In this document: piece after piece, positions 24,092 to 55,100 of the stretch
Layout: each line of letters opens with the position of its first letter
Position numbering within the stretch: position 1 is the stretch's first letter
NCBI RefSeq assembly: GCF_000013405.1
Contig: NC_007759.1
Span: 1,675,001 to 1,739,000 of the forward strand
Length of the DNA: 64,000 nucleotides
Origin: Syntrophus aciditrophicus SB
Lineage (GTDB): Bacteria > Desulfobacterota > Syntrophia > Syntrophales > Syntrophaceae
Direction: 5' to 3'
Translations under genes and position numbers: made by a program
The notes under the pieces: model-generated
The model's input: only the letters and a program-made list of their open reading frames with translations
Told to the model about the DNA's origin: nothing
The model's database searches: none

Positions 24092-24100
24092 GTTCGTCCT

Positions 24101-29871: not shown

Positions 29872-29897
29872 TTCAAGTGGCAGCAATGGGGTGTAAA

Positions 29898-30722: not shown

Positions 30723-30738
30723 AGGAGGGGGGAATATC

Positions 30739-35835: not shown

Positions 35836-35939
35836 CTTCAAACCTCCTTATCCAGCGACCCCATCGACCGCATTTATTCCTCTTTTCTGTTGCTCATGGT
35901 CTTAAGATTCTTTGGACTGATCACCGTTCATAATCCAAA

Positions 35940-36200
35940 TTAGAAATCACCCAGGACATCTTTCAGCTTGTCCGGGACGCCTCGACGGAGCGGCGCATCA
36001 TCTCTTTTTCCCGGCACCGCGCCCGGCGCTTCCTTCGAGAGCATCTCATAAACTTCCCTGCCGCCGACCGTGTCGAAATAAACCTTGAGGGCTCTCTGTA
36101 TGACCCGCCCGCGGTCCGGCTGGAAAATCGAGCGGATCTTCCGAATCAATTCATCGTCCGTCAGGGTGATCCTCAGGGTTATTTCACGCTTCGTGGTCAT
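35940..36200 (-). CDS. ParR-like partner of the ParM-like actin
   Basis: An 86-residue basic protein with a predicted ribbon-helix-helix-like N-terminus (MTTKREITLRITLTDDELIRK...RGRVIQRALKVYF) and a short C-terminal tail. Gene position immediately after a ParM-like actin with ATGA overlap is the standard parM-parR order, where ParR binds the centromere and caps the filament. The longer open frame upstream lies inside the actin gene, so I start at the ATG at 36200. Function by context. Confidence 0.68.
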   Translation of the reverse strand: MTTKREITLRITLTDDELIRKIRSIFQPDRGRVIQRALKVYFDTVGGREVYEMLSKEAPGAVPGKRDDAPLRRGVPDKLKDVLGDF

Positions 36201-37159
36201 TTCCCTGATTCCACGTCCAGCGCCTTCAGAAAACCCCTCGCGTTGGCATACTCGGGGTGATCGGGCACGTGAACGAGCGGCAGGTACTCCTCCGGGATGT
36301 GCTCCTGGAGATAGTAGGCGCCTCCCCCGGCGATGATAACCTTCTCCGCGCGCTGTATCCTCGCCATCCATTTCGAGTGCACTTCCTGGATCAGCCAGTC
36401 CATGTATTTCTCCGCCGATTCTCTGACCAACTCAGCGAGATCCCGCTCCGCCCCGTACACCCGGATCCTGCCTTGGCGAAGTACATCCTTCGATTCCTGT
36501 TCGGAAAGATCAAGTTGCATCCGGACCTTGATTTCCCTGGCGAGGTCCAGGGAGATCTTCGACACCCCATGCCTCTCCAGAGTGTCGGATTCGCCCTTGA
36601 CGATCCTCCCTCGCTCGACCACGATAACGTCCACGGTGTTGAATCCGATATCGAGAATGATCATGTCACGGTCCGTCCGCGCGTTGACGTCTCCCGCCTG
36701 GGACAGCCGGTAGTCCGCGAGAACCCCGAGACCCTGGGGATAGAACCGCGCGTTCAATTCCAATACCTCGCGGCCCACCTCGATCCGTTGCAGGAGGGGA
36801 ACGAGTTCCTTCAGGTTCGCTTCCGTGTAATGGGAAAGGGGGAGTCCCATGGCGACGTCCGTGACGAGTTCACCGGTCCTCCGATGGATTTTCTTCACCG
36901 CCTTGAAGACGAAAAGGGGCGAATACCTCTTCATGAACTCGAAGCTCCGCGTCGAAAAGGCGCCAACCAGGGCTTCCCTGCCGACGAAGTATTTCCTGCC
37001 CCGGTATTCATATTCCTCGCCCCCTGCAAAGGCCGACAGATCTCCGACTTCCCGCTCCGCGTAAGCGATCGCCGTCGGGAACTTGAGCATCTCCAGAATT
37101 CCCTCACGCTGATAAACGGCTTTCACGTCCCCGTACCCGACATCCAGTCCCAGATTCAT
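36197..37159 (-). CDS. ParM/Alp-type plasmid actin
   Basis: A 320-residue actin-fold protein of the plasmid segregation class. It has the phosphate-1 loop LGLDVGYGDVKAV at the N-terminus, the phosphate-2 loop IILDIGFNTVDVIVV near residue 165 and the adenosine loop VIIAGGGAYYL near residue 280. Such proteins polymerise with ATP and push plasmid copies apart. AAGGAGG sits 7 bases before the ATG at 37159. It pairs with the downstream ParR-like gene; a palindromic cluster upstream (37721-37912) could be its centromere. Confidence 0.87.
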   Translation of the reverse strand: MNLGLDVGYGDVKAVYQREGILEMLKFPTAIAYAEREVGDLSAFAGGEEYEYRGRKYFVGREALVGAFSTRSFEFMKRYSPLFVFKAVKKIHRRTGELVTDVAMGLPLSHYTEANLKELVPLLQRIEVGREVLELNARFYPQGLGVLADYRLSQAGDVNARTDRDMIILDIGFNTVDVIVVERGRIVKGESDTLERHGVSKISLDLAREIKVRMQLDLSEQESKDVLRQGRIRVYGAERDLAELVRESAEKYMDWLIQEVHSKWMARIQRAEKVIIAGGGAYYLQEHIPEEYLPLVHVPDHPEYANARGFLKALDVESGK

Positions 37160-37218
37160 TTGCACACCTCCTTGATGTTCTTCTTAAGTTTTTGCCGACA
37201 GTTCCGTCGTTTCATCAC

Positions 37219-37683
37219 TCAACCGAAATCGCGTTCATCCAGGTGATATCCCCGCCTGGCCAGGGCCTTTCGGAGCTTGACGAGATTCACCCGGTACTGG
37301 AGCGCGTGTTCCCACGGATACACCGGGTCTTCCCGCTCGTAGAGAAATTCCTTCCGGACAAGCGACTTGAGATGTTTCCTGATTGCATGCCTGCTCAAGG
37401 ACGGAATCGACTCGCTGAGGATATCGTCCGCCGTTTTTTCCACCCAGCCGCTTTCGGGCGGATCGTCCTGGAACTCCTGTTTCCCGCGCGCACTTTCCTC
37501 GTGCATGAACTGGTCGAAGTCCCAGAGGCGGCCGGTCCAGCGGATGAACTCCCGCAGGATCACGGCCTCGGCATGGTGACCGATCGTGACCTCCAGACCT
37601 TCCCTGAGAATCCGATTCGCGCGCCTGCCGGGCAAAACGAACGATTGAAGATGTGAACGGGGCATTATCGGCGTTTGGTTCAT
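37219..37683 (-). CDS. Winged-helix-like protein of the element backbone
   Basis: A 154-residue protein I cannot name. The part from about residue 80 to 130 (SIPSLSRHAIRKHLKSLVRK...) fits a winged helix: a helix, recognition helix with RHAIRKHLKSLVRKEF, and a wing (YEREDPVYPWEHALQYRVN). Its N-terminus is basic. AAGGAGG lies 7 bases before the ATG. It is the gene just upstream of the segregation pair, on the same strand, so a role in replication or copy control of the element is plausible. Confidence 0.6.
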   Translation of the reverse strand: MNQTPIMPRSHLQSFVLPGRRANRILREGLEVTIGHHAEAVILREFIRWTGRLWDFDQFMHEESARGKQEFQDDPPESGWVEKTADDILSESIPSLSRHAIRKHLKSLVRKEFLYEREDPVYPWEHALQYRVNLVKLRKALARRGYHLDERDFG

Positions 37684-37720
37684 GAATGGACCTCCTTCCT
37701 TAATTAAAGGCTGACGTGCA

Positions 37721-37912
37721 TGGTCGAGTATTCGACCATTTTTCCCTTCCGGCGGGGTTTTTCGGTCGAATATTCTCCACGCCGGAAAACCCCGAAAATG
37801 ATCCGGTACGGGCCTTCGCCTGAGTCAGCATAATAATGTTTATTATGTTCGTGCGATTGAGACACTTGCCGGGGCGAACCCGGTGTGCCATCGAATGGTA
37901 AATACTCGACCA
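37721..37912. repeat. Palindromic TCGA(G/A)TATT repeats, centromere- or operator-like
   Basis: TGGTCGAGTATTCGACCA (37721-37738) is a near-perfect 18-base palindrome. The half-motif recurs as CGGTCGAATATT at 37763-37774 and as TGGTCGAGTATT on the minus strand at 37912-37901. Between them CGGGGTTTT (37752-37761) and AAAACCCCG (37786-37794) make a stem. It lies in a 280-base gap upstream of the winged-helix gene and ParM pair, as expected of a parC site or regulator operators. Confidence 0.55.
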
Positions 37913-37962
37913 CCCGGAGAGCTTCCGGAGCGCGCTCCAGACTATGGACACGTTGTTCATTT

Positions 37963-38895
37963 TCATGTGCCTTCCCCCAGGCGGGTCAGCGCCCTCAGGA
38001 TCTCCCGTGCGCCGGTGAATTTCTTCCTGCCGCCCGGCCCCTCGACGACGCAGGAAGGTGTGGAATCGATACGGTCATCCCTGAGATGTTTGCCGAAGGT
38101 TTCAAAGGCCTGCGAGGAATCGACGTACCGGTACTTCAGGCCCCTTTCGCCCAGGAAGGCTTCCAGGTCCGGCAGGCTCCGGATATTTTCCTCCGCCGCC
38201 TTGAAGAGGGCGGATCTCGCCCAAAGGATCTGTGAGATATCGCTTCTTCCAGTCACCATTCCCAGGAAACATTTCGCATAGAGGATCGTTTCCCTGTGGA
38301 CGGGCGTATCCACGAAGGTGACTGCAGCGATCCGCCGCCTGACCAGATCGACGATGATCGGCTCCAGTTCCGGCTCCATCGAGTGGCAGGGAGGACAGAA
38401 ATAGTCGGTGTAGATCCTCACCTTGACTGGGCCGTTCCCGAAGGAGGGTATCTGGGTCTCCTCGGCGTAGGCCGGCGTCGCCGACCCGGAAAAGAGGGAG
38501 AGAAAAACTGAAAACCCGATTGCGGCGAAGAGAATCGCCGTCGACGGCCTGATCCTCTCAAGATGCATTGCGAAGAGAACGATGACCACGGCAGCGAAGG
38601 TGAGGCAATAGGGGCAGTAAACGCCGTTCATGACCTGGAAGCCGAGCAGGAAGACCTCCCCACCCAAGCCCAGGGACAGCAGGATCGCGCAAACGGCGTT
38701 CTTCCCGAAATCGCCGGCGGTCAGGACCGACCCCATGTAAAGCATGCCCAGGTGCTTGAGATCCAGGCCGAGCATGGATCCCCGCAGATACGTACAGGAT
38801 TCCGAGCAGAGGCTGTAAGCCGCCATCACGGCGATCCCCGTGATCCCAAGGGCGATAGTCGCGCTTCTCTTGTATCGACGCAGTTCTTTGATCAT
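37963..38895 (-). CDS. VKOR-thioredoxin fusion (disulfide-bond former)
   Basis: A 310-residue membrane protein. The N-terminal about 140 residues are a vitamin K epoxide reductase-like four-helix domain with Cys30/Cys34 and the redox pair CPYC (94-97). After a short linker the C-terminal domain is DsbA/thioredoxin-like with CPPC (167-170). It should form disulfide bonds in the periplasm. I start at the ATG at 38895, which overlaps the preceding gene by ATGA. A Dsb-type fusion is common in conjugative elements (for pilus folding), and its presence suggests transfer genes may once have been near, though none is visible. Confidence 0.82.
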   Translation of the reverse strand: MIKELRRYKRSATIALGITGIAVMAAYSLCSESCTYLRGSMLGLDLKHLGMLYMGSVLTAGDFGKNAVCAILLSLGLGGEVFLLGFQVMNGVYCPYCLTFAAVVIVLFAMHLERIRPSTAILFAAIGFSVFLSLFSGSATPAYAEETQIPSFGNGPVKVRIYTDYFCPPCHSMEPELEPIIVDLVRRRIAAVTFVDTPVHRETILYAKCFLGMVTGRSDISQILWARSALFKAAEENIRSLPDLEAFLGERGLKYRYVDSSQAFETFGKHLRDDRIDSTPSCVVEGPGGRKKFTGAREILRALTRLGEGT

Positions 38896-39302
38896 TTGGC
38901 CCTCCTTCGCAGTTCGTTGTATGCCCTTTTCCTCAGGCGGTAGATCCTCGTAATCACCTCGGAGGTCTTCTCGACCCCGTAGTAGCGCTTGATCTCGTCG
39001 GCAACCTGCTTCACATAAAGCTTCCCGCAATCCCGGGTGACGTGGTTCCTGTAACGGTTGATGACGTACCGTTCCCACTTGGCCAACTCAGCCGTGCGGA
39101 CGAGGTCCTCCCTCGTGGCCCGGTCGAATTTCGCGAGCTGCGCCCTCAAGAGGACCCGGTCCCCGTAAACCGCGCGCACGATCTCGACGGCATGGATATC
39201 CCCGTCTGCCAGGGGATCGCCCTTGACCAGGCCCAGTTCCCGGAGGCGGTGAAACACCTTGAGTGGAAGCTCGTATTTCCTGGAGGCATCTTCGAAGGTC
39301 AT
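38892..39302 (-). CDS. DNA-binding-like protein of the element backbone
   Basis: A 136-residue basic protein without a recognised family. The N-terminus (FEDASRKYELPLKVFHRLRELGLVKGD) reads as a helix-turn-helix, and the C-terminus is Arg/Lys-rich (RIYRLRKRAYNELRRRA). It overlaps both neighbours by four bases (39299-39302 and 38892-38895), so it is co-translated with the sigma-like gene and the VKOR gene. Function unknown; DNA binding is inference. Confidence 0.55.
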   Translation of the reverse strand: MTFEDASRKYELPLKVFHRLRELGLVKGDPLADGDIHAVEIVRAVYGDRVLLRAQLAKFDRATREDLVRTAELAKWERYVINRYRNHVTRDCGKLYVKQVADEIKRYYGVEKTSEVITRIYRLRKRAYNELRRRAK

Positions 39303-39895
39303 GCGCCCGCCTCGAAATATTTCCTGACCCGTTTGAGGCCGGTATCCCGGATTTCCTCAACCACCTGCCGTTTCACTGAGAGGATCTCTGCGATGTCTGT
39401 CGTCGTGTAGTACGTATCGCTCAGGAGATAGCGCCAGACCTTTCTCTGCTTCGTGGTCATTACCTGGAGAGCCATGTCGACGAGAGCTTCGACCGTCTCC
39501 AGATCCTCCTTCCCCATGCCGGTTTCCTCCGTGAAGTCTTGGAAATGATCCTGCATGGGAGTGGGCGCGTATCCCCGCTCCGTGTAGTTTTCCCTGAATT
39601 CCTCGTAGCGGTTGCGGGTGACGGGATTGGAGGCCATTGTCCTGCTGTCGGCCGTGAAGAGGACCCAGAAGCAGGCCTCGAAAGGAATGCCCTGGTTCAT
39701 GGAGACGTCCACGGCTGCGAGCGCCGCCGCATAGGCCTGCTGTGTGAAATCTTCCAGGTCGTAGGGCGAGTAGCGCTGAAATTTCACCGCTCTTCCTCTT
39801 ATCTTCCTCATGTTCCGCTCGACCCACCGGACGGCCTCGTTTCGATGTGTCTCGTAATTCCCTTCCCGGGACGCGGTTGCCGCAGCTAATGCCAT
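39299..39895 (-). CDS. Sigma-70-like regulator
   Basis: A 198-residue protein resembling a small sigma factor. Residues about 15-65 (HRNEAVRWVERNMRK...YDLEDFTQQAYAAALAA) look like region 2, and residues about 140-195 (MTTKQRKVWRYLLSDTYYTTTDIAEILSVKRQVVEE) form a region-4 helix-turn-helix. It may turn on the element's own genes. The start at 39895 has AGGAGG-like CTGGAGGACACA just upstream. It is the second gene of the backbone run starting at 40880. Confidence 0.65.
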   Translation of the reverse strand: MALAAATASREGNYETHRNEAVRWVERNMRKIRGRAVKFQRYSPYDLEDFTQQAYAAALAAVDVSMNQGIPFEACFWVLFTADSRTMASNPVTRNRYEEFRENYTERGYAPTPMQDHFQDFTEETGMGKEDLETVEALVDMALQVMTTKQRKVWRYLLSDTYYTTTDIAEILSVKRQVVEEIRDTGLKRVRKYFEAGA

Positions 39896-39953
39896 TGTGT
39901 CCTCCAGTTCAAAGTGTCTTCTCTCAGGTCCCCTGACTCACGCACCAATACGG

Positions 39954-40880
39954 TCAGGGCGGCTTCGCAAGCCGGCTGAAAACGGCGCCGATCCTGACGA
40001 GTTCCCCCTGCGACAAATCCCTTTTGTATTCCCGGTTTCTTTCGATATGGTCGCGTTCGTTGAATTTGCCGTACTCCACCTCGTAGATCTTGTTCGCGTA
40101 CGGCCAGAGATCCTTCTTGGTGTCCTGCTCCTTCGCGATCCTCTGGAGGGTGTGGAGGATGGCCGCGGGGTTGAACTTCTTCTCGCTGAACTTGGCCTGG
40201 CACCACCGGTAGGCGTTGAACTTCCTGGGATTGATCGCGCCCCCGAACTCGCTGATCTCGTTCCTGAGTTTTTCGTCCGCGATGTGGGCCAGAAAGTGGT
40301 TTCCCCTTGGCGAAGATCTTCTTTTAGGCGGGTCCGTCTCCGGCGGACCGCATGAAGGGGGAGCCGGAGGCTGCTTATCTTCAGATAAGCTGTTTAAGGA
40401 ATCCGGAATCAGAGAATCAGGAATCAGGATATCAGCAGGGCTTGCACCGTGCCCGCATGGTGCTTGCACTGTGCCGGGATGGTTCTCTTCTGGTGCTTGC
40501 ACCGTGCTTGCCTGGTGCTTTTCCGGTTCCGGCATGGTGTCGGCATCGTGCCTGCCCGGTGCCGGTATGGTGCTCTTGGGTTCTTTCAGGTGGGGGTTCT
40601 GATGCCTGCCGAAGTGGACGATCTGGATGAAGCGGCGTCCTTCCGATTCGTATCGGAGGATGAACGGGTCCGCTCCCAACGCCAGTGATGCAAGGAGGGA
40701 TTCCGCGTCACAGGCATCGTAGGGAAGGATCTCTGCCTTGATCCTCGCGGGCCTGTCTTCGAGGCGCCCCTCCCGGTCCGCCATGCACCAGAGCCCCTGG
40801 AAGAGGATCCGCGCCAGCGGATCTTTGGCCGCGAGTTCCTCATTCTTGAAAAATCCAGGCTTGATGTTCCGTGCCCTCAC
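39954..40880 (-). CDS. Phage/element replication-type protein with low-complexity linker
   Basis: A 308-residue protein. The N-terminus RARNIKPGFFKNEELAAKD with LARILFQGLWCMADREGRLE is typical of phage replication/DnaD-related proteins. The middle (about residues 100-150) is a repetitive Pro/Ala/His/Thr linker (TVQAPE, TVQAPC units). The C-terminal third (residues about 190-275, ISEFGGAINPRKFNAYRWCQ...) is helical. I start at the GTG at 40880 because AAAGGAG lies 5 bases before it. Probably the helper of element replication; a direct origin-binding role is inferred. Confidence 0.65.
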   Translation of the reverse strand: MRARNIKPGFFKNEELAAKDPLARILFQGLWCMADREGRLEDRPARIKAEILPYDACDAESLLASLALGADPFILRYESEGRRFIQIVHFGRHQNPHLKEPKSTIPAPGRHDADTMPEPEKHQASTVQAPEENHPGTVQAPCGHGASPADILIPDSLIPDSLNSLSEDKQPPAPPSCGPPETDPPKRRSSPRGNHFLAHIADEKLRNEISEFGGAINPRKFNAYRWCQAKFSEKKFNPAAILHTLQRIAKEQDTKKDLWPYANKIYEVEYGKFNERDHIERNREYKRDLSQGELVRIGAVFSRLAKPP

Positions 40881-41320
40881 TTCGGCTCCTTTCCCGGAGA
40901 TGCTTCGAGATCCCGGCAGTGCATGCGGATGACGGATCGATGGTGATCCGGCGCATGGGAAATCTCTAACCGAGGAAAGCGCGCGTGAAAACAACGGGGG
41001 GGCAACGGGGGTGCAGGATGATGATCAGCTATGGATGATTATTGAGGTTTTATGGAATGAGGGGAAAAAAAGAACTGGAAAGATGTCTTTCTAAGGGATG
41101 ATGACGCGGGGGTCCCCGCTCAGGAATGCTTCTTGATGACCTTTAGGCGAAGCCTTTTCTGATCACCAGAAGGATCGAAGTTCGCGTCGGTTATTCATAT
41201 CTTGTTGCTTTAATTGATTATCAGCCGTGCATTGAAGCAGATGCGGGCCGGTTGTGCTATCTTGGAATGCATAGCGGGGGGATAGCGGGGCGCATGAGTT
41301 GATGAAGAACTAAAGAGTAA
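40881..41320. other. Gene-free boundary between the element backbone and the defence operon
   Basis: About 440 bases, containing a GCGGGG-GT-CCCCGC stem at 41106-41119 and G-tracts near 41000. No T-run is adjacent. It holds the promoter of the replication-type gene and the end of the long operon, neither resolved. Confidence 0.45.
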
Positions 41321-43096
41321 TTATTCGGAGCCTTGAATAATGTTGTTTCCCTGCAGGAACCGATTCATATCGGTGAACATGCTGAAGAAAACAGGCTTTC
41401 CTGAAAAGGCCAGCGGCGATATTGGCCCCACTGCCATAAATGGAAACTCCTGAAGGTTTCGGGCTGGGAAACTTTGTGGATCACGGAATGATTGGTATAA
41501 CTCTAACGAACGCTTGTCTCCCCCCACGAAATCTCTTAGGCGGTCAAACTCTGTGCCCATAGCAAGCCCAAACCCGAAAGCCAGTATTCGAAGTTGTTGC
41601 AGAATCTCTGGGTCAAGACCTCCGAGCGTTTGACTGATGAAGAACCATCCCAAACCGTATTTCCGAGTCTCCCTTACTGCACGGCGCAGTAACACACGGA
41701 GCCGCTCGGCCTCTGTGTCCTGTTCTAATCGACCGCTGGGGGCATGCCTGTGCGCCTCATCGAGAAAAACCAGAACATTTGCACTTTGCCTCGTCGATAA
41801 GCTGGATGTCGATTGAGCGATCATAACATTCAGCAACTTACTTAATAGACGACGCTCCAGTTCTTCCGTCCAGAAACGATTTTGATTGCCTCGCGCGGAC
41901 AGGTCAATAACAACAATCGGACGTGGCCCCGTTTCATTTGCAGTTCCCATTAAGTCGGATACGATTCCATACAACCTCCGCCTTCCTGGTCCTGCAGCAA
42001 AAAGACTACAGAGCGGAATCCACTTGCTATTTAGAACTTCATCAAATCGATTTGAAAGAATATCCTGCACTCGGTTTTGCAAGCGCACACGCGGGTCTTT
42101 GCTTGGGAAAATGTATGGCAGGCTTTGTTGGTCTAAAACGGCATTCAGTGCTGTAGAAAGCGCATCGCGAGTCCCGAGGTTGGCAAGTTGAAATTGTTGT
42201 CTCCCTCCCTGCGTCGCACGTTCCAGGGCATTTCGAACCACTTCCGCTGCACGCACCGCATTGTTGTTGTGCGTAATGGTCAGCTCTTCACAGAAACCGA
42301 GAGACACCAGCATTTCTTCGAAGGTGTTCCATTCATCTAATTGAATATCAGCGATTCTGTAAATGTTAATTGATCGCCCTTGCTGCCGCACAATCTGGTC
42401 CAGAGCCAATCCTTGATTGCCAACACGTGTGCCTGAAAGTTCCAGCGTGAATTCACCTTGAGGATCAATGACAAGGATACCAAGATTAGTGTGCCGGGAG
42501 TAAGCACAGAGCATCATCTTTGCTAAACCCGATTTGCCAGACCCTGTCTTACCGAAGACTCCGATATGATAAGCCTCGCCAGCACCACCGGGACCTTGAT
42601 CATTGCTTCCGAAGTGCTTGAACCACATGGGATAAAGGATCTCGTTGGCATAGGCTTGGCCAAGGTAAAATATCTCGGAACTATATGCTTGTAATAGCTG
42701 ATCGAGTAATCCTTGATCGATTCTTGAGACTCTAGTCCCTGTTGCTGGGACCATTCCCAATACTTCTGGCTGAAACCCGTTCCCTGTTCTCTTGAACGTG
42801 GCACCTACAACAAGGTCCGCCGTTCGCGTGTCCTGTCGATTTGTTATAGGCGGAATCTCTCCCGTTCGTTTCACGAGATTCCTGAAAACGGAATCTTCAT
42901 GCCATCGATTTTTCAACTCGATGCCTACTATCTGCCCTACAGACACGATTGCTTGACCATTCTGTGTTGCTTGAAAAGCAGATAGCGCTCCAACTAAACG
43001 CTCTTCAGTGGCCTCCTGAAGAAGGTCTAATGTTAATTCCGTATTGGTTGATGGGCTTCCTACGACTGCGACATCCTGATTTCGATTATTTGTCAT
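41321..43096 (-). CDS. HerA-type ATPase of a NurA-HerA pair
   Basis: A 591-residue DUF87/HerA ATPase. Walker A GVFGKTGSGKS (182-189 in this numbering), Walker B NVLVFLDEAHRHAPS, then VRETRKYGLGWFFISQTL, the sensor and arginine-finger region. The ATG at 43096 overlaps the NurA stop by one base (TGATG) and has GAGGAGG upstream. HerA hexamers thread DNA to NurA nuclease in archaea, and bacterial NurA-HerA pairs occur in defence loci. This is the second HerA in the window and differs from the SIR2-linked one. It is the last gene of the operon starting at 58849. Confidence 0.88.
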   Translation of the reverse strand: MTNNRNQDVAVVGSPSTNTELTLDLLQEATEERLVGALSAFQATQNGQAIVSVGQIVGIELKNRWHEDSVFRNLVKRTGEIPPITNRQDTRTADLVVGATFKRTGNGFQPEVLGMVPATGTRVSRIDQGLLDQLLQAYSSEIFYLGQAYANEILYPMWFKHFGSNDQGPGGAGEAYHIGVFGKTGSGKSGLAKMMLCAYSRHTNLGILVIDPQGEFTLELSGTRVGNQGLALDQIVRQQGRSINIYRIADIQLDEWNTFEEMLVSLGFCEELTITHNNNAVRAAEVVRNALERATQGGRQQFQLANLGTRDALSTALNAVLDQQSLPYIFPSKDPRVRLQNRVQDILSNRFDEVLNSKWIPLCSLFAAGPGRRRLYGIVSDLMGTANETGPRPIVVIDLSARGNQNRFWTEELERRLLSKLLNVMIAQSTSSLSTRQSANVLVFLDEAHRHAPSGRLEQDTEAERLRVLLRRAVRETRKYGLGWFFISQTLGGLDPEILQQLRILAFGFGLAMGTEFDRLRDFVGGDKRSLELYQSFRDPQSFPARNLQEFPFMAVGPISPLAFSGKPVFFSMFTDMNRFLQGNNIIQGSE

Positions 43097-44223
43097 CAAA
43101 CACCTCCTCGGCCACCTTCCGTTCTATAATTCTGTAAGAATAGAAGCGTATTTTCAATGTCAGGGGACGATCCCGCTACGTGCTGTGCAACGGTCTGTTC
43201 GATTACCGCCACACCGGATCCGAGACTCTTGACCATTCGATCGGCCAGAAATAAGGGATACGGCTCAATTACAGCCGGGCTGAAAAACTGACGACTTATA
43301 CCTTCCAGAACAATTGATAGTCGTGTGTTACTCGACGTTATTGCGGATGGCAGTTCCATTCTCAGTGCGGGAAGCCAACCGTAAGGACGAAAATAGATGA
43401 CCGATAACCGATTCAATGCCTCCCTAATTTCATCCATATCTTTTGTGGGACAGTATTTCTCCGGTAGGTGGTCAACCTGCTGGCTCGCAGGATCGGTCGC
43501 ATCATGCAGGGGTAATGGACGAGTATATTCACCCGGATCCAAAATCATCGTGGCCAGCGTTTTACCGTCGACCATTACGGGGGGATTCAGCATGTTTTCA
43601 CGAAGAAATTCGTTGCGAGATGTAAACTTAGGCATGGCAACTGTTCTTTCGCTCGTTAATAAACCCTTCAGCTGATCCAGCGCGCCGCCTTTCCAGCGGT
43701 CCAAAAAAAATTCGGATAAGGTCTTTGAGGAATCAGCAATCCTCGTAAGCGCTTGATTTAAATAGATGACCAGGGATGAAAATGATCCGTCAAGAAGAAC
43801 GAGATCATGGGGAGCTTTGGCCGCGAGCGCCATCTCCATTGAGACCATTGTGCCCCGCAAGACTCCGACTGCATCAATACAATGTGGTAATCCATCGACC
43901 CACATATCATGATAGGGCTCCGGCCAGTATCTGGCAGCCTCTTTGGATGTACCCTCTACCGCAACAGCTGCGGCTGCACATAAGTCCAATGCTGTCAAAC
44001 GATGCACCTGATATGATCCATCCACTCCGACGACTGATGGTTCCCTGGGCACATCGAGGTCAGCTTTTCGGCAGATCAGGCGATGATTTCTCGCTTCTGT
44101 ATAGAGGCGGGCGCGAGCATCACGGAGTGCCTGCAGATTCTGTGACACCCCTTCCGCAACAGGTGCGGCTTTGGCAAGGAGATCTCGAACCAGTGCATCA
44201 GGAAGATCCGCGAATGCCTCCAT
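43096..44223 (-). CDS. NurA-domain nuclease
   Basis: A 375-residue NurA nuclease. The RNase H-like active-site motifs are visible: VVGVDGSYQV with Asp68 and HDLVLLDGSF with Asp145; a later VAVIEQTVAQHV helix resembles the third acidic region. NurA degrades DNA ends with HerA. ATG at 44223 is preceded by AAAGGAGG with 11-base spacing; the four-base gap to the upstream DruA-like gene and one-base overlap with herA argue for one complex. The frame runs further up to 44325 only by overlapping the neighbour. Confidence 0.82.
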   Translation of the reverse strand: MEAFADLPDALVRDLLAKAAPVAEGVSQNLQALRDARARLYTEARNHRLICRKADLDVPREPSVVGVDGSYQVHRLTALDLCAAAAVAVEGTSKEAARYWPEPYHDMWVDGLPHCIDAVGVLRGTMVSMEMALAAKAPHDLVLLDGSFSSLVIYLNQALTRIADSSKTLSEFFLDRWKGGALDQLKGLLTSERTVAMPKFTSRNEFLRENMLNPPVMVDGKTLATMILDPGEYTRPLPLHDATDPASQQVDHLPEKYCPTKDMDEIREALNRLSVIYFRPYGWLPALRMELPSAITSSNTRLSIVLEGISRQFFSPAVIEPYPLFLADRMVKSLGSGVAVIEQTVAQHVAGSSPDIENTLLFLQNYRTEGGRGGV

Positions 44224-44227
44224 ACAC

Positions 44228-45397
44228 TCAGTTTCCTCCTTTATTGATCTTTTTCTTTGAAGGCCAAAGTCGATACTGTTCCCGCGTGTATTCGCGGTAA
44301 TCTGGCTTCCGTTCTGCTCGACCAATGAGCCATCTATTCTTGAAAGCCTCCGATAATTCTGAAGCTGTCCAATTATAGAAACATGGCCGTTTAACTTCTC
44401 CCTTCAAGAACCGGATTGCATCACGCCCCAAAGGGGCAGCGAATATCTCTCGGCGGATACCGTGGTAAATAAGATCCGCTGAAAGACCGATCTGAGAGAG
44501 GCACTTGCGAATTACTTCACGCTTGTTTCGAAAACCGGTCCCCCAAGCTATGTGCTTTGCGGTAGGCTCGCAATACTTTTCAACATATGCCCTGATGTCG
44601 CCATAGACACCGTTGGAAAAGTGGAATTCTCCTGACCCTTGTGTGAATCCCAGGCTGGTCCAATATTGTTGACCATTGATGCGGATTCGATTGTATATGG
44701 AAGACCGTCCAAGAGCCGAAGTGGTTGTAACCAGTGTAAGGTAAGGCGGCCGAGTTTCCTGTCTGATTAAAGATTTCTTGCCGTTGTATTTTTCACGAAA
44801 TGCGTCTCGCACCTCGTTGCTGCAAACGAGCAGTGCTATAAGTTTTCCGCCCAGCAAGAATGAATATGGCGGCACAGCACCCAACACATAAGCATCCATT
44901 ATGTGATACAGGTGTTGTGCTTTGTTTTCCTTGTCCCATCCAATCCAATTATCGCGTGCTCGCATAGAGTAGACCGGGTCTCCCAAACCGAATAAACCCA
45001 TCAGCTTTCCATTGCTTTCATCGAACACAAGGAAGCGAAGTCTCCTCCCGTATCCTGCCGAGACCGGAATACTCCAGTGAAGACAAGCATAACGAAACAG
45101 CAGTTCGTTTTCGGATCCAGGTCTTACGACTACAAGCTTGGGTCGTATTTCATTGGTTATCACCTGATGCCCGTCAGCAATATATTGAATAAGCTGATCT
45201 TCATAAGATCGAACACCCGGACCGGATACTTCAAGTTTTTTATGCAGGGCAAGTTCGTTCAGCGCACGGAAATCATCTTTCGTGGGGTCCTTGGGCAAAT
45301 GGATAATTCCATCATGTACCCTATAACCCTGCTTACGCAGAGATCGGATAATGGCAGATCTTAAGAGCTCTGCCGATGGTACATTCATGAGTGGCAA
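44228..45397 (-). CDS. DUF4338 (DruA-like) protein
   Basis: A 389-residue DUF4338 protein, the family of Druantia DruA. The family core is seen as LVVVRPGSENELLFRYACL, GYGRRLRFLVFDE, LMGLFGLGDPVYSMRARD and WTSLGFTQGSGEFHF. The large DUF1998 helicase DruE that defines Druantia is not present, so this is DruA-like in a different setting: it is followed by NurA and HerA. The start is TTG at 45397 with AAGGGA upstream; an ATG nine bases later (45388) is the alternative. Its biochemical activity is not established as far as I know. Confidence 0.8.
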   Translation of the reverse strand: MPLMNVPSAELLRSAIIRSLRKQGYRVHDGIIHLPKDPTKDDFRALNELALHKKLEVSGPGVRSYEDQLIQYIADGHQVITNEIRPKLVVVRPGSENELLFRYACLHWSIPVSAGYGRRLRFLVFDESNGKLMGLFGLGDPVYSMRARDNWIGWDKENKAQHLYHIMDAYVLGAVPPYSFLLGGKLIALLVCSNEVRDAFREKYNGKKSLIRQETRPPYLTLVTTTSALGRSSIYNRIRINGQQYWTSLGFTQGSGEFHFSNGVYGDIRAYVEKYCEPTAKHIAWGTGFRNKREVIRKCLSQIGLSADLIYHGIRREIFAAPLGRDAIRFLKGEVKRPCFYNWTASELSEAFKNRWLIGRAERKPDYREYTREQYRLWPSKKKINKGGN

Positions 45398-45415: not shown

Positions 45416-48334
45416 TCATTCCTCAGTGGTCCGATCGATGTCTGCCTCGTCAAGCGGCTCGTCTACAGCATTTCGGAGCCACGATGGATCGAACCCGGCA
45501 TTCGAAGATCCTTCAACTCGGATTCGCACCCTGGCTCCATCGGACTTGTCCGCTAGGTTCGCAATAGCAGGGAACGCCTTGAAGACCTGCTCCCTACTGG
45601 CCTCAAAGGTCATGACAATCCGCTTCCTTCGTCCCGCGGCCCCAGATCCCGCCGTTGCTGGATCAGAGCCTGTTCCCTCGTCCATCCCCGTAGGGGTTTC
45701 GTGGACGCCGGGAAGAGGAGTGGTATCTGTATCGATTGGGGACGTTCCGGCGGGCCGCGCAGTTGCTGGATCCGGAACAGCTTGCGGCATCATAAGGAAG
45801 CCGGATTCGAAATCGATCTCATCATCCGAAAAGGGATGGTCGCTACCAATCAGTACCTTATTTCGATTTACCTGGTATTTTCCATCTGGTCCGAATGCGG
45901 GGACTACACCGCTCGTATAAGCGAAGATGCCCTCGGATACACCGCGGGCGATTCCCTTACGCAGAATCGATGCAGATTCCAATCGGGGCGGAGCGATATC
46001 CCGGTAGAAGGATTCGAGCACGTCCGATGTCTTAATACCCATGAGCGGCTGCTCACCCGCTGCCGGCGACTCGCCGAGTCTCACGCGCTCTGTTATTTTC
46101 CGAGGTGTAACCGATCCGTGAATCCGTGGCGTTCCCACGCTGGTGAGAAGTTCCATTATCCGCTCGTGGACGCCTGTCGCCTGGAGCGGGCGTCCACCTC
46201 TTTCGACCTTCTCGATTTCCAACCCGCCGTCCTGTACCCGAGGCAACCACGCGGCCGTGTAAAGCTCCCGGAAACACGACTCGGCAGCAGCCTGTTCGGT
46301 GCGCTTCCTCTCCCGGAGTTGGTCAAGCTGATCCTTGGTAAGCCGGAGCTGCTGCTTCTTGGCTTCCACGCGGTCGATGGCCAAAAGATACCGGACGGCA
46401 CGCCGCAAAGCCTCGATTTGTTTCTTTTCCGGTATCGCAAGTCCCAGCCCGTTGCGGAAACGCCGGGGACGATCTCCGTACTTGGTCAGGTGCTCCTTGG
46501 CTTGGCGATCCTGTTCCGACTTGCCCTCGGCTGCGAACTCAAGTGGCAGGTAGGCAACGAGAAAACGGGGGTCCTCGTCGGGGATGTCCTGGCTCTTTGC
46601 CGGCCAGACAATGGCCGTGTGATGACCGGCCAGCCGGGCATCCAGCATTTCCTTGATCTGACTTCGGACCGGGCCGTGACCACGAGCCTGAGAATCTTCA
46701 CGGGCAACGGTCTGCTCCGCGTCCTCGATCAGCTTGGTGACATTCGGGTCCTTCTTGAAGCAGTACCGGACGCCGTCGTAATGCAGGTACAGGCATGTAT
46801 TACGAAGCTCGGACAAGACGGCGGTGGCCGTGATGTTGTCCAGCTCGGGACCGACGCAGGCCGCAAGCAGCTCGTTTTCCGTAACGCCGGGCGGCAGGGT
46901 CTCGTCGCTGCCTGAGCTCTCACGCCTTAACCCGCCAAACGAGTAAAGGAGGATGGCCGTGGCGATGCGGGTGGCAGGTTTCACACTGGCAAGCGCGGGA
47001 GTCTCGCGCGCCATCCGGTCGTCGATGCGTTTTGCCCGGGCGTTTGGACCGTCGATGTCCGCTGTGATGACCGGGTCGTAGTCGTTCTGTACCCCGAGCT
47101 CTTTGAGCATCTTCACTCGGACATCCACGTCCTTTACCGGCACGTCTCCGGGCCCAAGAAGCGCTTTGGCCCCGCCGTTCTTCTTAAGAGAGTGCATGCA
47201 GGAGGCAAGGAACCGCAGCGCGCCGCGTGTCCTCTGGAAGGCATCCACCGCGGTCCAGCGTTCCCTCATGATGTCGATGAGCGCGGGATGGAATGGATAT
47301 GCCGCCCGCATCCGATCACGCAGGAGGCGGCCTTCCTCCTCGGCTTGCTGGCGCTCGGACGGCGTTTCGGCATGGGCACGCTGCATACCGGTCACTACAT
47401 CTTGATATGCCGTGGACACCTCGGTGGCTGAGGAAGCGTCGGGAGCACCGCCAAGAAGACGCCGTTGGAGGATCGGCAGGACCTCGTCCCCCGAGACAGG
47501 TTCCCTGAGTTGGTCCACCCGCGAGGCGAGCTTGTCGATCTCGGCAAGCAGTCCCACGTTTCCCAAAGCTTCCCTGGCGCTCCAGGTGAGGGAATAGACG
47601 AGCGCGGCCTTCTCGCTCCCGGCCACCTCGACGGTCAGGTTCTGGAAGAAATCCTTGGCCTGGCGCTGGAGGGTGGAATCAAGGACACTGACCGCAGCGG
47701 ACCGCTCCATGTACTTGAGCACTTCGTCGAGGAGGATGAGAACCGGCCGACCACTTGCCCCCTTGGTAAGCAACTCGCGGATCACATCTCCGCCTGGAGA
47801 CACACGGTCCTTATCGTGCTCGGCGACGAGGGGGAAGGCCTTTTCGGGGTCGATCTGCCAGGCAATCCACCCCCACATGGTCTGGATCGTGCGGCCGTCT
47901 TTCAGTGTCTTGCCGTTACGGGCATCGAATTTCTCGCCGTCGAAAACCGCCACGGCCACATTGCCGGGTCGGGCGAATTCCTTAGCCTCCGGGATGCCGT
48001 CCAGCGCCTCTCGCTTTCGCGCGGCATGGAACAGCGACGCCAGAGTGTGCGACTTTCCCCCGCCGAAGGGCACTCTGAGCTTCAACACCCGGTTGTAACC
48101 GGACTTGCCGGAAAGGGATGCCAGCACTTCGTCCAGGAGCTTTCGCAGATCGGCCGTGAGGTATGTCGCCCGAAAGAAGGCTTCAGGGTCTCGGTTGACC
48201 ACGGGCACGTTGGGATCATTGGCGGCGATGGCTCCGAGATCGATGGCGAACACCGCCTCGGTCAGCGCACCCGCTTCCACGTCGGGATGGAGCTTGACCA
48301 GGTCGGTCCAGGGACGAAGTGCATGTGTGCTCAC
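45416..48334 (-). CDS. DUF499 ATPase of a helicase-methylase-ATPase system
   Basis: A 972-residue DUF499 AAA-type ATPase. KLRVPFGGGKSHTLASLFHAA has the Walker A (about 89-97), and VLILLDEVLKYMERS is the Walker B. The C-terminal part is rich in Pro, Gly and Asp (about residues 845-905) and looks like a linker followed by a small domain. It begins at GTG 48334, overlapping the methylase stop (GTGA), with GGAGG 7 bases upstream. DUF499 is found next to DUF1156 methylases in defence loci (HMA class). Confidence 0.88.
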   Translation of the reverse strand: MSTHALRPWTDLVKLHPDVEAGALTEAVFAIDLGAIAANDPNVPVVNRDPEAFFRATYLTADLRKLLDEVLASLSGKSGYNRVLKLRVPFGGGKSHTLASLFHAARKREALDGIPEAKEFARPGNVAVAVFDGEKFDARNGKTLKDGRTIQTMWGWIAWQIDPEKAFPLVAEHDKDRVSPGGDVIRELLTKGASGRPVLILLDEVLKYMERSAAVSVLDSTLQRQAKDFFQNLTVEVAGSEKAALVYSLTWSAREALGNVGLLAEIDKLASRVDQLREPVSGDEVLPILQRRLLGGAPDASSATEVSTAYQDVVTGMQRAHAETPSERQQAEEEGRLLRDRMRAAYPFHPALIDIMRERWTAVDAFQRTRGALRFLASCMHSLKKNGGAKALLGPGDVPVKDVDVRVKMLKELGVQNDYDPVITADIDGPNARAKRIDDRMARETPALASVKPATRIATAILLYSFGGLRRESSGSDETLPPGVTENELLAACVGPELDNITATAVLSELRNTCLYLHYDGVRYCFKKDPNVTKLIEDAEQTVAREDSQARGHGPVRSQIKEMLDARLAGHHTAIVWPAKSQDIPDEDPRFLVAYLPLEFAAEGKSEQDRQAKEHLTKYGDRPRRFRNGLGLAIPEKKQIEALRRAVRYLLAIDRVEAKKQQLRLTKDQLDQLRERKRTEQAAAESCFRELYTAAWLPRVQDGGLEIEKVERGGRPLQATGVHERIMELLTSVGTPRIHGSVTPRKITERVRLGESPAAGEQPLMGIKTSDVLESFYRDIAPPRLESASILRKGIARGVSEGIFAYTSGVVPAFGPDGKYQVNRNKVLIGSDHPFSDDEIDFESGFLMMPQAVPDPATARPAGTSPIDTDTTPLPGVHETPTGMDEGTGSDPATAGSGAAGRRKRIVMTFEASREQVFKAFPAIANLADKSDGARVRIRVEGSSNAGFDPSWLRNAVDEPLDEADIDRTTEE

Positions 48335-51252
48335 TTTTTGGCCTCCGAATTTCGAATGAGTTCAAATAGGGTTCCTTCCCTGGCGGCCAGCCGTTGGTCG
48401 ATGAGCGCCCGCCAGTTGGCGACGAGTTTCTTAAGTGCAGCCCCTTCCGCCGGCGTGGTCGCCAGTGTGTGTTCCGGTCCGTCGTCCTTCCTGCCGGCCA
48501 GCGCAGTTCCTGCCAGGGTCTGGGCTACCAGACGCAACCGCTCTCGGTCCGGCCGCGCCTCGTCGAGGAAGTCATTCAGATTCCTGGGCTGGTTTTCCAC
48601 CAGCCAGAGGATGCGGTGCAGGATGTCGATCAGCGGGGCGGCTTTGCCGTCATCCTTTGGCACCCCCAGCTTTTCGTCATCACCCCGTTCGGCGAAATCC
48701 CGCAGCCTGTACTTACCTTTCTTCTTCTCGACCAGCGCGCGGCTTCCGGACGAAAGTCCGTTCTGGCCGTCCAGCTCAACATTCTGGCCGTAGGTGAAAA
48801 CGATGGCCTCGCCCGCGTCCATCTCGGCCGCTTTGTAAGCGTAGCGCCAGAGCACGTAAAACCGGCTCGGGCCGTCAACGGCGGCGACCCCGCTGCCGCT
48901 CACGCCGAAGATCTTTTCGAGAAGCGTCTCCAGCACGACACCTTCCACCTCCGCCAGGAATTTCTCGGCCGGGACCTCCTCGCCGTTGGCGTACTCCACG
49001 CGGGCAAATTTGGTGAAGGCGCGGAGCCCTGCACCCACTGCGGCGATGACCAGGTCCGCGCCGGTGATGCCCATTTTCCAGAGCGAATCAACGCGCTCGC
49101 GGACGATCTTCTCCAGGTCTTGACGGACTTGATCCTCATACGAGCCTGTCTCAGGTGCTTCACGTCGCCGGGCTACGAGAAAAATGCTTGAGGCAAGGGC
49201 CGCGTCTCCTTGGTGAGCCACTCGGGCCTTTGTTTCGGTAGTAAGAGGCCAGGCTTCGGCAACTTCATATCCGGCACGCCGAAGCGCATCCACAAGAGTC
49301 GCCCACCCAAGGGTGGTCTTATGGGCATAGACGACGATCAGGATGCCGCCAGGTTTCGTGACACGATGGGCTTCTTGCAAGGACTGAAACAGGGTGTCCT
49401 CATAATAGTTCCGCGCCTGCTGCTTTCCCCCCTGGCGATAAGCTGCGGCGACGCATTCCTTTTTCTTCGGCGTAAGTTGGCCAGCGAAATGCTCAGGGTA
49501 GAGAAAGCCGATGGTAGGCCGCAGCCAGACGTAACAGACATCGGAAAGCTCCGAGTAGCTTTCGTTGTCGTAGTAAGGGGGATCGGTAATCACCGCATCG
49601 AAGATGCCGTTGTCATATGGCAGTTCGGCGGCGGAACCGCGCACGACTTTAACAGGGTTACGGAATTGCCCTTCACGTCTGACAGCAGCAGTAATGTATT
49701 CGAGGCTACCCCATGCATCTCCGGTAGCGCCACCGAAGAGATTCACTTCAGGAAAATCCCACATCATCGCGAAACGCTTCATCGATGTGAGACTCTCAAT
49801 GGTTTCCCGACCATTATTCCATCTGGCTAATCCATTGCACTTGTCAGTAAGACGACTGACCCATAACCCCAGGTATGTCGCGATGGCCTTTGCCCGTTCC
49901 GTCTCCACTCCCTGTTTAAGCATCTCTTGGTAGACATGGTGCACCTCGCGCGCCAACGTCAAGAGAACGTACCGTTGTCGCGGCGTGAACGCCTGGCGGA
50001 ACGTCCGGATGCCGTATAGATAGCTGTTCCCTGTGGCAAGCCCGGCGTTGCCGGTCGGCGGAATCTCTTCATCCAGACTGCTTGGTCCAAGCTCTCGCTC
50101 GATCTCCGTTGCCCGCTGTTCGGACATGGCTTGATGCTCGGCCTCTATTGCCGCAAGCGATTCATCGACAAGATACAACTTGCCAGGTCCGTCGGGATTG
50201 AGCGCAATCACGCACATGAGCTGCTGGCCGAAGCCTTTCTCGTCGCCATACCTGCGGACATAGGGACCATCGAGAGCGGTTTGACAGAAGGGGCATGCCG
50301 TGGATGATCCAGCGCTCCCGGTGGACGGATCAAAGCCGAGCGCCGATGCAGACCGAGCTTCGACCACCTGAAAACGCATGATGCGTCTGCCCATGTCCGG
50401 TACCGGCTTCAAGGCCACGTAACCGGAGGATTTATTTCTCAACCAGGTCTGTCGATAGAGCGGTACGGTTCCTTTGCACTGTGGATTCGGACATGGGATG
50501 GTCCGCGTCCAGTAGTAAGCGACGACAGAATACTCGTCGGCTGGCGTTTCATTTCCATCCCCAAGGGTTCTTTGGATTGCCCTCGGTTGCTTCCGTGCAA
50601 CCGGTATGCGTGCAAGGACGTCGGACACCGCCTCTTGCGTCCGCTTCAGAATGGTTTTTCCCCACTTCTCGATATCGTCAGCCAGCTCCGCTCCGAATTG
50701 CTGCGGGAAGGTGACGGTGCACAATTCGATGAGATAAGCGACCGGATTGAGGTCGAGAGCATGTGACTCACATCCCAGTCGGGCAGCTTCAATTGGAATG
50801 GCCCCGCCGCCCGCGAACATATCCAGCACCATAGGGCGTGGTGCTTTTCCTGCCTCGATCTCCTCGACCGTAACGGTCTTGCCCGTCTCTCTCGTCAAGC
50901 GCTCGGCATGGGCTTCGAGGATGTGCCTCTGCGCGTCTTTGATGACGATTTGGTTGCCCGGATACTTGCAGAGCCGATCAACAAATTTGGCTACGTTAGC
51001 CCGGCCCAGACTCTGTTTCTTGTTGTCCGGTCCATTCTCCGGGATAAATAACGATGCCGGCACCAACGCCCCGTACACCGCAGCCCGGCATGCCACCAAG
51101 GGCCGCCGCGCACGCCATACATGTAAGGTCGAAATGTGCCCCTTAGTACGGGGCTCACTCGAAGCAGCTTCCCCGACCGAGTTCACGGGCAGATAGTCTT
51201 CTATGAGTCTGCGGTCGTTCAATTCAGCGTTCTCCACAAAGAGGTTTTTCAA
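48331..51252 (-). CDS. DUF1156 adenine-specific DNA methyltransferase
   Basis: A methyltransferase of about 973 residues. The N-terminal DUF1156 segment is HISTLHVWRARRPLVACRA; AdoMet motif I is LDMFAGGGAIPIEAARLGC and catalytic motif IV is VITDPPYYDNESYSEL. Cysteine pairs CPNPQC and CPFC suggest a zinc ribbon. The frame stays open to 51411, but that stretch belongs to the GIY-YIG gene on the same strand in another frame; I give TTG 51252, and GTG 51237 is equally possible, with no strong ribosome-binding site. It overlaps the DUF499 gene by four bases. Presumably marks self DNA. Confidence 0.88.
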   Translation of the reverse strand: MKNLFVENAELNDRRLIEDYLPVNSVGEAASSEPRTKGHISTLHVWRARRPLVACRAAVYGALVPASLFIPENGPDNKKQSLGRANVAKFVDRLCKYPGNQIVIKDAQRHILEAHAERLTRETGKTVTVEEIEAGKAPRPMVLDMFAGGGAIPIEAARLGCESHALDLNPVAYLIELCTVTFPQQFGAELADDIEKWGKTILKRTQEAVSDVLARIPVARKQPRAIQRTLGDGNETPADEYSVVAYYWTRTIPCPNPQCKGTVPLYRQTWLRNKSSGYVALKPVPDMGRRIMRFQVVEARSASALGFDPSTGSAGSSTACPFCQTALDGPYVRRYGDEKGFGQQLMCVIALNPDGPGKLYLVDESLAAIEAEHQAMSEQRATEIERELGPSSLDEEIPPTGNAGLATGNSYLYGIRTFRQAFTPRQRYVLLTLAREVHHVYQEMLKQGVETERAKAIATYLGLWVSRLTDKCNGLARWNNGRETIESLTSMKRFAMMWDFPEVNLFGGATGDAWGSLEYITAAVRREGQFRNPVKVVRGSAAELPYDNGIFDAVITDPPYYDNESYSELSDVCYVWLRPTIGFLYPEHFAGQLTPKKKECVAAAYRQGGKQQARNYYEDTLFQSLQEAHRVTKPGGILIVVYAHKTTLGWATLVDALRRAGYEVAEAWPLTTETKARVAHQGDAALASSIFLVARRREAPETGSYEDQVRQDLEKIVRERVDSLWKMGITGADLVIAAVGAGLRAFTKFARVEYANGEEVPAEKFLAEVEGVVLETLLEKIFGVSGSGVAAVDGPSRFYVLWRYAYKAAEMDAGEAIVFTYGQNVELDGQNGLSSGSRALVEKKKGKYRLRDFAERGDDEKLGVPKDDGKAAPLIDILHRILWLVENQPRNLNDFLDEARPDRERLRLVAQTLAGTALAGRKDDGPEHTLATTPAEGAALKKLVANWRALIDQRLAAREGTLFELIRNSEAKK

Positions 51253-51532
51253 GCTGACGGAGCCTGCTTTCAATCTGGATTCGTCCGGTCTGCTGGAGGT
51301 TCGGCGTGTAATGCGCCGCATAGTAGATCGTGCCTCGGCAGTTCTGTCGCCACCGACCGGCGCGGTCGTGATTGAGCACACGCTCCTGCACATTGTGCGA
51401 CTCACCAACATCCAGGCACGTCCATGTCTCGCCGTTCTTGCACCAGATCACGTACACGCCAGCCCGCGCTTCCAGTTGATTCGCTGAAGTAAAGGCCCCT
51501 TCGAAGTTGTAGCCATGTCGCTCAAAGCTCAT
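51224..51532 (-). CDS. GIY-YIG-like small nuclease-fold protein
   Basis: A 102-residue protein resembling a minimal GIY-YIG domain. The GIY strand is AGVYVIWC, the YIG strand is TCLDVGES (degenerate), followed by R-helix residues (NVQERVLNHDR) and a glutamate-bearing helix IESRLRQLEKP that could supply the metal ligand. AAGGAGGG lies 5 bases before the ATG. Its 3' end overlaps the methylase start. It could be a nuclease partner of the restriction system; degenerate motifs mean catalysis is not certain. Confidence 0.7.
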   Translation of the reverse strand: MSFERHGYNFEGAFTSANQLEARAGVYVIWCKNGETWTCLDVGESHNVQERVLNHDRAGRWRQNCRGTIYYAAHYTPNLQQTGRIQIESRLRQLEKPLCGER

Positions 51533-51644
51533 AGCTGCCCTCCTTCATAAGTTGTTGTTTCAGATATCGCGCACATCCACCCTTGTTCCCTCGCCGCATT
51601 GGAGCTGCCTCGCTTTCTGCGTCAATCCATCTGCGGTCATTCAT
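51522..51644 (-). CDS. Possible 40-codon coupled small ORF
   Basis: The ATG at 51644 overlaps the UvrD-like stop by ATGA, and the frame runs 40 codons, ending inside the start of the GIY-YIG gene. It starts MNDRRWID and is basic. The 12-base segment encoding NNL-stop of the UvrD-like gene is repeated within it (51546-51557 and 51641-51652 read the same on the minus strand). It could be a genuine coupled small protein or just debris of a small duplication. Confidence 0.3.
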   Translation of the reverse strand: MNDRRWIDAESEAAPMRRGNKGGCARYLKQQLMKEGSYEL

Positions 51645-53707: not shown

Positions 53708-53820
53708 CTTCTCACCTTCGATGTTCTCCACACAGCGTTACGACATCAACGTATCTCCGGCAACCTCGCCTAAAGATCATCATCTGGATCGGCAGGCGAT
53801 GATCATATCTGCAATCGGGA

Positions 53821-54597
53821 TTATTCACCCATGACCTCGTCAAAATATCGTTTGATTCTGTCTCGGTTTCCACTCAAGTTTGAAAATTGCTTCTCGCAGA
53901 CATCGCTGAATCTGGCCAATACTTTCCGGTTGATTTGTTCCTGGTCTTCAAAGATGGCTACGGAACGAAATGCAAGACCCCACTTTTCGAATTGCAGAAG
54001 AGTGATGGTGGCATCGCGCGTCTTATCATCTCCGGGCATCGCGTGAACAAAAAGCGGCTTGGGCATCCCATTGATCTTGCAGTCAATCAAATACTTTCCT
54101 TCCGGATCGTGTGAAGGATCGTGCCAGTCAAACTCTCGTCTGTTTTGGGGCACCGCTTCCTCAATGAACGATCGAAAATCTTCCATAAAAGTCGAACGGA
54201 CTCTTTCACGCGAGAGATAAGTGATATCCGTAATTCTGAGTAAAGCCTGTACAAAGCTATATAGCGCGTCTCCGTACTGATCGTTGCTTATCTTGGTTAT
54301 GAGTTCTCCCTCTCGATCCTCGACTTTGAATACGGATAACGCGTTTGTGATGATTTTTTGCCTTGTCCCCCGTTGAAGATCCTTTTCCTCCAAATCATAT
54401 GTGAGGTGCATGTACGTATGTCCCTCATCCGTGAGTATCCATTGATCATCACCCTTTCTCATGACTATGGAAAGGTGGTCTCCATCTTCGAACATAAAGG
54501 GCACAAAGACACGGAAACGCTCAATGCCCTCACTCTTTACTCGTAATTTTTCTGATACTTTTATTCGAAAATCCTGTTCGATTCTTTCCAAGTTCAT
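53821..54597 (-). CDS. DUF1828/DUF1829 protein
   Basis: A 258-residue protein matching DUF1828 ([19 protein letters not shown], then [14 protein letters not shown]) and the following DUF1829 domain (FIEEAVPQ...[25 protein letters not shown]). Proteins of this kind occur in mobile elements and small two-gene modules; their biochemical role is not known to me. It starts three bases after the end of the upstream gene and is therefore translated with it. AT-richer than the helicase and methylase around it. Confidence 0.8.
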
Positions 54598-54600
54598 AGC

Positions 54601-55083: not shown

Positions 55084-55100
55084 CAATATACCCCAAAGAG

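Follow-up and report, generated by a model that had tools for sequence, protein, structure and literature searches.

A stand-alone DruA-NurA-HerA gene cassette with a candidate role in HerA-driven defence

A 64,000-nucleotide stretch of the Syntrophus aciditrophicus SB genome (NC_007759.1, positions 1,675,001 to 1,739,000; hereafter the window) encodes three adjacent proteins on its minus strand: DruA, a DUF4338 protein that annotations everywhere assign to the antiviral system Druantia, a NurA-type nuclease and a HerA-type DNA translocase. This trio is a stand-alone cassette that is independent of both the Druantia helicase DruE and the HMA operon behind which it lies in the window. Within the cassette, NurA and HerA are a fixed engine and DruA is an exchangeable part that has been swapped between backbones. 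Defence would be the best reading of its role, and we propose, tentatively and with confidence a little short of even, that the trio is a self-contained, horizontally spread anti-invader cassette in which DruA marks self DNA.

The three genes are arranged head to tail on the minus strand in the order druA (44228 to 45388, 386 aa, start ATG at 45388), nurA (43096 to 44223, 375 aa, start ATG at 44223) and herA (41321 to 43096, 591 aa, start ATG at 43096). The spacing between druA and nurA is 4 bases, the herA ATG overlaps the nurA stop codon by one base, and druA starts 28 bases downstream of the DUF499 gene of the HMA-type operon on the same strand. A preliminary description of this DNA, made from the sequence alone, had placed a DruA-like DUF4338 gene 4 bases from a NurA gene overlapping HerA, and the coordinates and family assignments bear this out; its druA frame was right, but the start it gave (45397) is an upstream in-frame TTG. 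DruA matches PF14236 over its full length (positions 2-297 of 297; E 5.7e-143) and the PADLOC DruA model with 394.6 bits, and so has the full-length form expected of DruA in Druantia type I. HerA, a predicted HerA/FtsK-type hexameric translocase, matches DUF87 above the cut-off (E 7.5e-13) and has both a Walker A (GKTGSGKS) and a Walker B (VFLDEAH) motif. The NurA match to PF09376 is weak, scoring 23.3 bits where the cut-off is 21, and is confirmed by an RNase H-type nuclease fold (Z 21.6 to SsoNurA). Its active-site-like acidic residues D68, E130, D145 and D328 are invariant among 40 homologues. Whole-genome searches found a single copy of this NurA and a single DUF4338 gene. The preliminary description had also seen no DruE-type helicase, and this too is confirmed: a DUF1998/MZB helicase is absent from the window by tblastn with three DruE proteins, and the whole genome returned only a 93-residue match inside a generic helicase. 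No druB, druC or druD genes were noticed in the window, where no search was aimed at them, and a promoter and terminator scan of the trio gave matches no more numerous than in shuffled sequence.

The window's NurA was aligned with its counterparts from five genomes of the same phylum, and this alignment served as the query against 84,980 species genomes and IMG/VR. With the window excluded and any shared contig taken once, the search returned 48 NurA loci from more than a dozen phyla, some of them archaeal. In 46 of these loci NurA has DruA beside it (the exceptions are L027 and L059), and HerA follows NurA at every locus where the contig continues. When neighbouring genes were clustered, each trio family occurred in 44-47 loci and any other family in at most 8, the neighbours being as diverse as gyrase, ribonucleotide reductase and type III restriction genes. 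An HMA protein was found near the trio in one locus only, as a weak DUF499 match in L061, and the DUF1156 methylase was absent from 32 of the 45 trio genomes, each searched whole, including the genome that carries L061 (G254). Since trios nearly always occur without HMA and among diverse neighbours, the trio is a cassette that in the window hitchhikes behind HMA. These counts support the earlier suggestion of a compact system of its own riding in the HMA operon; DUF4338-NurA-HerA trios are indeed found outside HMA loci, and the opposite outcome that had been considered, trios never separating from HMA, fails because separation is almost universal. With regard to chance, this NurA is present in five and full-length DruA in seven of the 394 other genomes of the window's phylum, and all five are among the seven (hypergeometric p ~3e-10).

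Departures from the standard arrangement are few. Two loci (L047 and L064) have the order NurA-HerA-DruA, and in three a gene intervenes between DruA and NurA, encoding pentapeptide repeats in L029, a NOV_C protein in L063 and a homologue of the latter in L031. The L031 (2769-5933) and L063 (9757-12888) products are proteins of ~1050 aa, the L063 copy having sacsin-like and NOV_C domains, and are an accessory of one NurA subclade. In L038 (9965-11143) and L057 (9977-11126) NurA is interrupted and split into two open frames beside largely intact-looking DruA and HerA, possibly through nuclease loss or sequencing error.

A reverse census started from DruA, which avoids the bias of seeding with NurA, and covered two phyla, that of the window (395 genomes) and Chloroflexota (301 genomes). 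Full-length PF14236 is present in eight genomes of the window's phylum, where seven copies adjoin NurA-HerA (six of the seeded type and, in G373, one diverged pair ordered NurA-HerA-DruA) and the eighth is truncated by a contig end. Among the 14 Chloroflexota genomes with full-length PF14236, nine have seeded-type trios (one being the search-centre genome), one has a trio of the G373 type, two have a DruE-type helicase, one has HerA with an unconfirmed NurA-like gene (L138) and one runs into a contig end. With the two seed genomes and the contig ends left out, 18 full-length DruA genes were assessable, of which 15 belong to NurA-HerA trios, two are Druantia-like and one accompanies HerA and the unconfirmed NurA. 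In these two phyla, full-length DruA occurs chiefly with NurA-HerA.

Two of the arrangements recovered in this way differ from the seeded type. A second-lineage trio in the order NurA-HerA-DruA (L090:11523-15679 and L146:7882-11849) has NurA and HerA proteins that are 74-80% identical across two phyla. L138 (7665-13184) encodes DruA, a 347-aa protein, a 431-aa protein with a NurA-like DGS motif that has no Pfam support, and HerA, and is perhaps a third DruA-NurA-HerA lineage. Short DUF4338 genes form a separate branch that matches only about positions 34-227 of the family, and examples are fused or adjacent to transposases or are multicopy. The short genes of L092, L094 and L095, one of which is fused to a DDE transposase and one located near an IS66 transposase, have neither the TTSALGRSSxYNR segment nor the C-terminal half of DruA. 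The possibility, raised in the preliminary description, that DUF4338 is a transposon passenger thus holds for some genes of the short branch and is rejected for the full-length form, which is linked to NurA-HerA.

The three proteins have not evolved as one unit. Distance correlation is r=0.91 for NurA-HerA, as against 0.50 for NurA-DruA and 0.31 for HerA-DruA. DruA is 83% identical between L044 and L069, where NurA is 36% and HerA 40% identical, and the reverse pattern is seen between L022 and L069 (NurA 77%, HerA 82%, DruA 50%). A constraint keeping together the DruA proteins that belong to the window's NurA clade was rejected by the approximately unbiased (AU) test (p=1.7e-58, from a quick tree with some long branches). 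Because NurA tracks HerA but DruA does not, and because the AU test rejects a common DruA grouping, DruA is the exchangeable part. The window's NurA clade spans at least five phyla and one contig from the viral collection, presence is patchy (6 of 395 genomes in the window's phylum), and signs of mobility include two viral-collection contigs among the loci and recombinase genes nearby.

Profile searches of the PDB with NurA and DruA returned nothing at E up to 1, so the relationships of these two proteins rest on their folds. The NurA model (predicted local distance difference test score, pLDDT, 90.7) matches SsoNurA (2ygk) at Z 21.6, TkNurA in the HerA-NurA complex at 21.0, TdpB in TdpAB at 13.3 and DrNurA at 12.9, with Endonuclease V and Argonaute forming a background at Z 8-9.5, well below these matches. 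The best PDB sequence matches of HerA are TdpA and Thermococcus kodakarensis HerA. In characterised HerA-NurA complexes, double-stranded DNA is pumped through the HerA hexamer and both of its strands are cut by a NurA dimer (PMC12977600, PMC9960219). The trio resembles the archaeal and Deinococcus end-resection complex in having both families, a NurA fold at Z 21-22, adjacent genes and a predicted ring-plus-nuclease architecture. It differs in its linkage to DruA, patchy distribution, transfer across phyla and location in a defence island, and sequence similarity is remote, with 14% identity across the structural alignment and HerA below the NCBIfam cut-off. TdpAB combines a HerA-type motor with a NurA-type nuclease and is used in defence together with DNA phosphorothioation by TdpC, a logic that resembles restriction-modification. 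The likeness here is that TdpA and TdpB are among the matches of HerA and NurA, respectively, but the partner in the trio is a GNAT-fold protein rather than the phosphorothioation enzyme TdpC. SIR2-HerA and HerA-DUF4297 likewise join a HerA-type motor to an effector enzyme, but use another HerA subfamily (the highest PADLOC HerA score is 49 bits here versus 917 for the window's SIR2-linked HerA at 15533-17674) and another nuclease.

The DruA model (pLDDT 89.7) has a GNAT fold, and all PDB matches listed for it are GNATs or contain one, in agreement with an independent assignment of DUF4338 to this fold (PMC10853773). Its top PDB match after VIA-align, in a tie with other GNATs, is the DNA-modifying GNAT Mom of phage Mu (Z 10.0, 180 of 222 residues), relative to which DruA has additional N- and C-terminal helical regions. 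Foldseek returned no match for DruA at E<=0.001, and PHROGs only a family of unknown function. When DruA and Mom were forced into alignment, the low-confidence result was collinear, with HYS set against HWS and the tyrosine of YQASNF against that of YNR. One cyanophage DruA-like protein is annotated as 'methylcarbamoylase mom'; cyanophage proteins that resemble Druantia DruA in structure have been noted elsewhere (PMC12774648), and Mom-REase (restriction endonuclease) fusions in jumbo phages have been read as momylation-restriction pairs (PMC7824862). The motifs YGRRxRF, GAVPPYxxLLGGK, TTSALGRSSxYNR and GxTxGxGxFH are strictly conserved in trio and Druantia DruA alike. DruA homologues from Druantia type I (DruA-DruE) show 35-39% identity in full-length alignments and have all conserved motifs in common, but there the partner is DruE, whereas motor and nuclease here are HerA and NurA.

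NurA and HerA are adjacent and co-vary, and the two are predicted to form a complex. Modelled on characterised complexes, a hexameric HerA ring would encircle and pump DNA, and a NurA dimer sitting on the ring would cut the strands fed through it. By analogy with Mom, the GNAT-fold DruA would most probably act on DNA bases, and its mark may let HerA-NurA spare self DNA and degrade unmarked incoming DNA, in a restriction-modification-like manner comparable to TdpC and TdpAB. Given a pumping and cutting HerA-NurA and DruA as a DNA-acting GNAT, self-marking with degradation of unmarked DNA is the simplest joint reading. A more specific version, which we consider possible though doubtful, is a restriction-modification system of base acylation and a ring translocase-nuclease: DruA would be a Mom-like enzyme of cells, adding acyl groups to bases of the host DNA, HerA-NurA would degrade DNA lacking this modification, and Druantia type I would be a cousin in which DruE has taken the place of HerA-NurA.

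Several observations weigh against a defence cassette with a marking DruA. The neighbours of stand-alone trios are mostly housekeeping genes and defence genes a minority; a PADLOC tally of 99 neighbours contained many housekeeping genes, with restriction-modification, methylase and other defence genes in the minority. The idea that trios always reside in defence islands is rejected on this tally, and the main grounds for a defence reading are therefore the island in the window, mobility and architecture. L027 is a close NurA-HerA pair whose whole metagenome-assembled genome (MAG) is devoid of DruA, which argues against obligate marking: under strict restriction-modification such a pair would kill its host, barring an incomplete MAG or some other way of marking. 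Two plasmids, from Rhizobium and Euzebya, similarly carry diverged NurA-HerA with no DruA on the same replicon. As for DruA itself, the Mom match is tied with generic GNATs at Z 9.5 and below, and hhalign finds no significant profile-profile similarity between DruA and Mom (probability ~1%), so homology to Mom is not claimed.

These pairs without DruA fit more readily with DruA as a non-catalytic sensor or loader, whose GNAT fold would bind a feature of invader DNA or a phage product and target the HerA-NurA ring, with no self-mark involved. A swap of DruA would then change what is recognised, and the exchange of DruA between conserved NurA-HerA backbones suits such an interchangeable recognition subunit. 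The pairing of full-length DruA with the unrelated motor DruE in Druantia type I also favours the sensor reading. The strictly conserved, pocket-like motifs of DruA, however, would be less expected in a fast-evolving sensor than in an enzyme or a ligand-binding site. DruA exchange agrees equally well with a targeting subunit and with marking, provided in the latter case that the nuclease does no more than read the mark. We regard the targeting role as unlikely, and the marking role as close to evenly balanced, on the doubtful side.

A DNA-repair module, with HerA-NurA resecting ends like its archaeal and Deinococcus counterparts and DruA in an accessory role, would agree with the fact that the closest characterised relatives of NurA and HerA are repair enzymes (PMC9960219, PMC12977600). 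We consider it improbable, since patchiness, cross-phylum transfer, DruA exchange and a defence-island location misfit housekeeping repair. DruA might instead be an acyltransferase effector acting on host protein or RNA in an abortive response to infection, with HerA-NurA either separate or an activating, DNA-sensing nuclease: DndF-fused DUF4338 has been read as a possible suicidal GNAT effector on proteins (PMC10853773), and the RNA cytidine acetyltransferases Kre33 and TmcA are among the structural matches of DruA. DruA-like genes that stand alone in lytic cyanophages are easier to reconcile with DNA modification than with suicide, and we give this explanation little credence. The position of the trio 28 bases after hmaC on the same strand, together with the DUF499-like gene near the trio of L061, could suggest that the HMA system includes it as an integral effector and that it is not a passenger. 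That nearly all other trios have no HMA nearby, and that most trio genomes, G254 included, lack DUF1156, makes this very improbable.

A HerA-driven nuclease defence of this kind would be a new member of HerA-based defence and would account for many orphan 'Druantia' calls. Neither PADLOC nor NCBIfam includes a model for this NurA or for the trio. In PADLOC, HerA and DruA are each recognised singly; in NCBIfam, DruA too is without a match, and the HerA matches stay below threshold. No description of the trio was found in the literature searched (open-licence papers, without supplements), and NurA and DUF4338 are not mentioned in the account of HMA/DUF499-centred BREX-Related systems (PMC12839542), directly downstream of one of which the window's trio is encoded but without which it occurs nearly everywhere. 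The families are known; what appears new is that they are combined, how broadly this combination occurs, and that it is where full-length DruA is mainly found in the two sampled phyla. If NurA-HerA is the commonest partner of DruA and the fold is that of a DNA-modifying GNAT, both the role of DruA in Druantia and base acylation as a cellular self mark become testable, and the ~4 kb cassette in cultured bacteria (Pyrinomonas methylaliphatogenes, Tepidimonas alkaliphilus) is a convenient object for both questions.

The window's trio is located in an island with Wadjet, SIR2-HerA, type III restriction-modification, 6A-MBL and HMA genes. Upstream on the minus strand, the host operon comprises an hmaC-like DUF499 ATPase (45416 to 48334), which is not a trio member, an hmaB-like DUF1156 adenine methylase (48331 to 51411) and an hmaA-like SNF2 helicase with a C-terminal NOV_C domain (55101 to 58637). 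The HMA gene set (helicase, DUF1156 methylase and DUF499 ATPase) is thus complete in this neighbouring operon by the HmaA, HmaB and HmaC models, and the trio itself does not contain it. Genes for a UvrD helicase, a DUF1828 (PDC-M24B-like) protein and a DUF6978 protein are inserted inside the operon (51641-55086, minus strand). Also on the minus strand are a complete Wadjet-type operon (JetD, JetC, JetB and JetA; 8347-14957), a SIR2-HerA pair (HerA 15533-17674, SIR2 17671-19098) and a type III restriction enzyme and methylase, after which come a 232-aa protein of no assigned family and an SNF2 helicase (19070-28068). Lying 22 kb from the trio, the SIR2-HerA pair (15533-19098) is a second HerA defence system, unrelated to it. 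6A-MBL anti-phage genes occupy 29847-35375 on the plus strand, where the C terminus of the cap2_3 protein (31899-35375) extends ~420 residues beyond the NCBIfam model in a tail that, by eye, is metallophosphoesterase-like. Between these genes and the trio, an actin-like ParM/Alp gene and small plasmid-like genes (35900-41000, minus strand) are possibly an integrated element.

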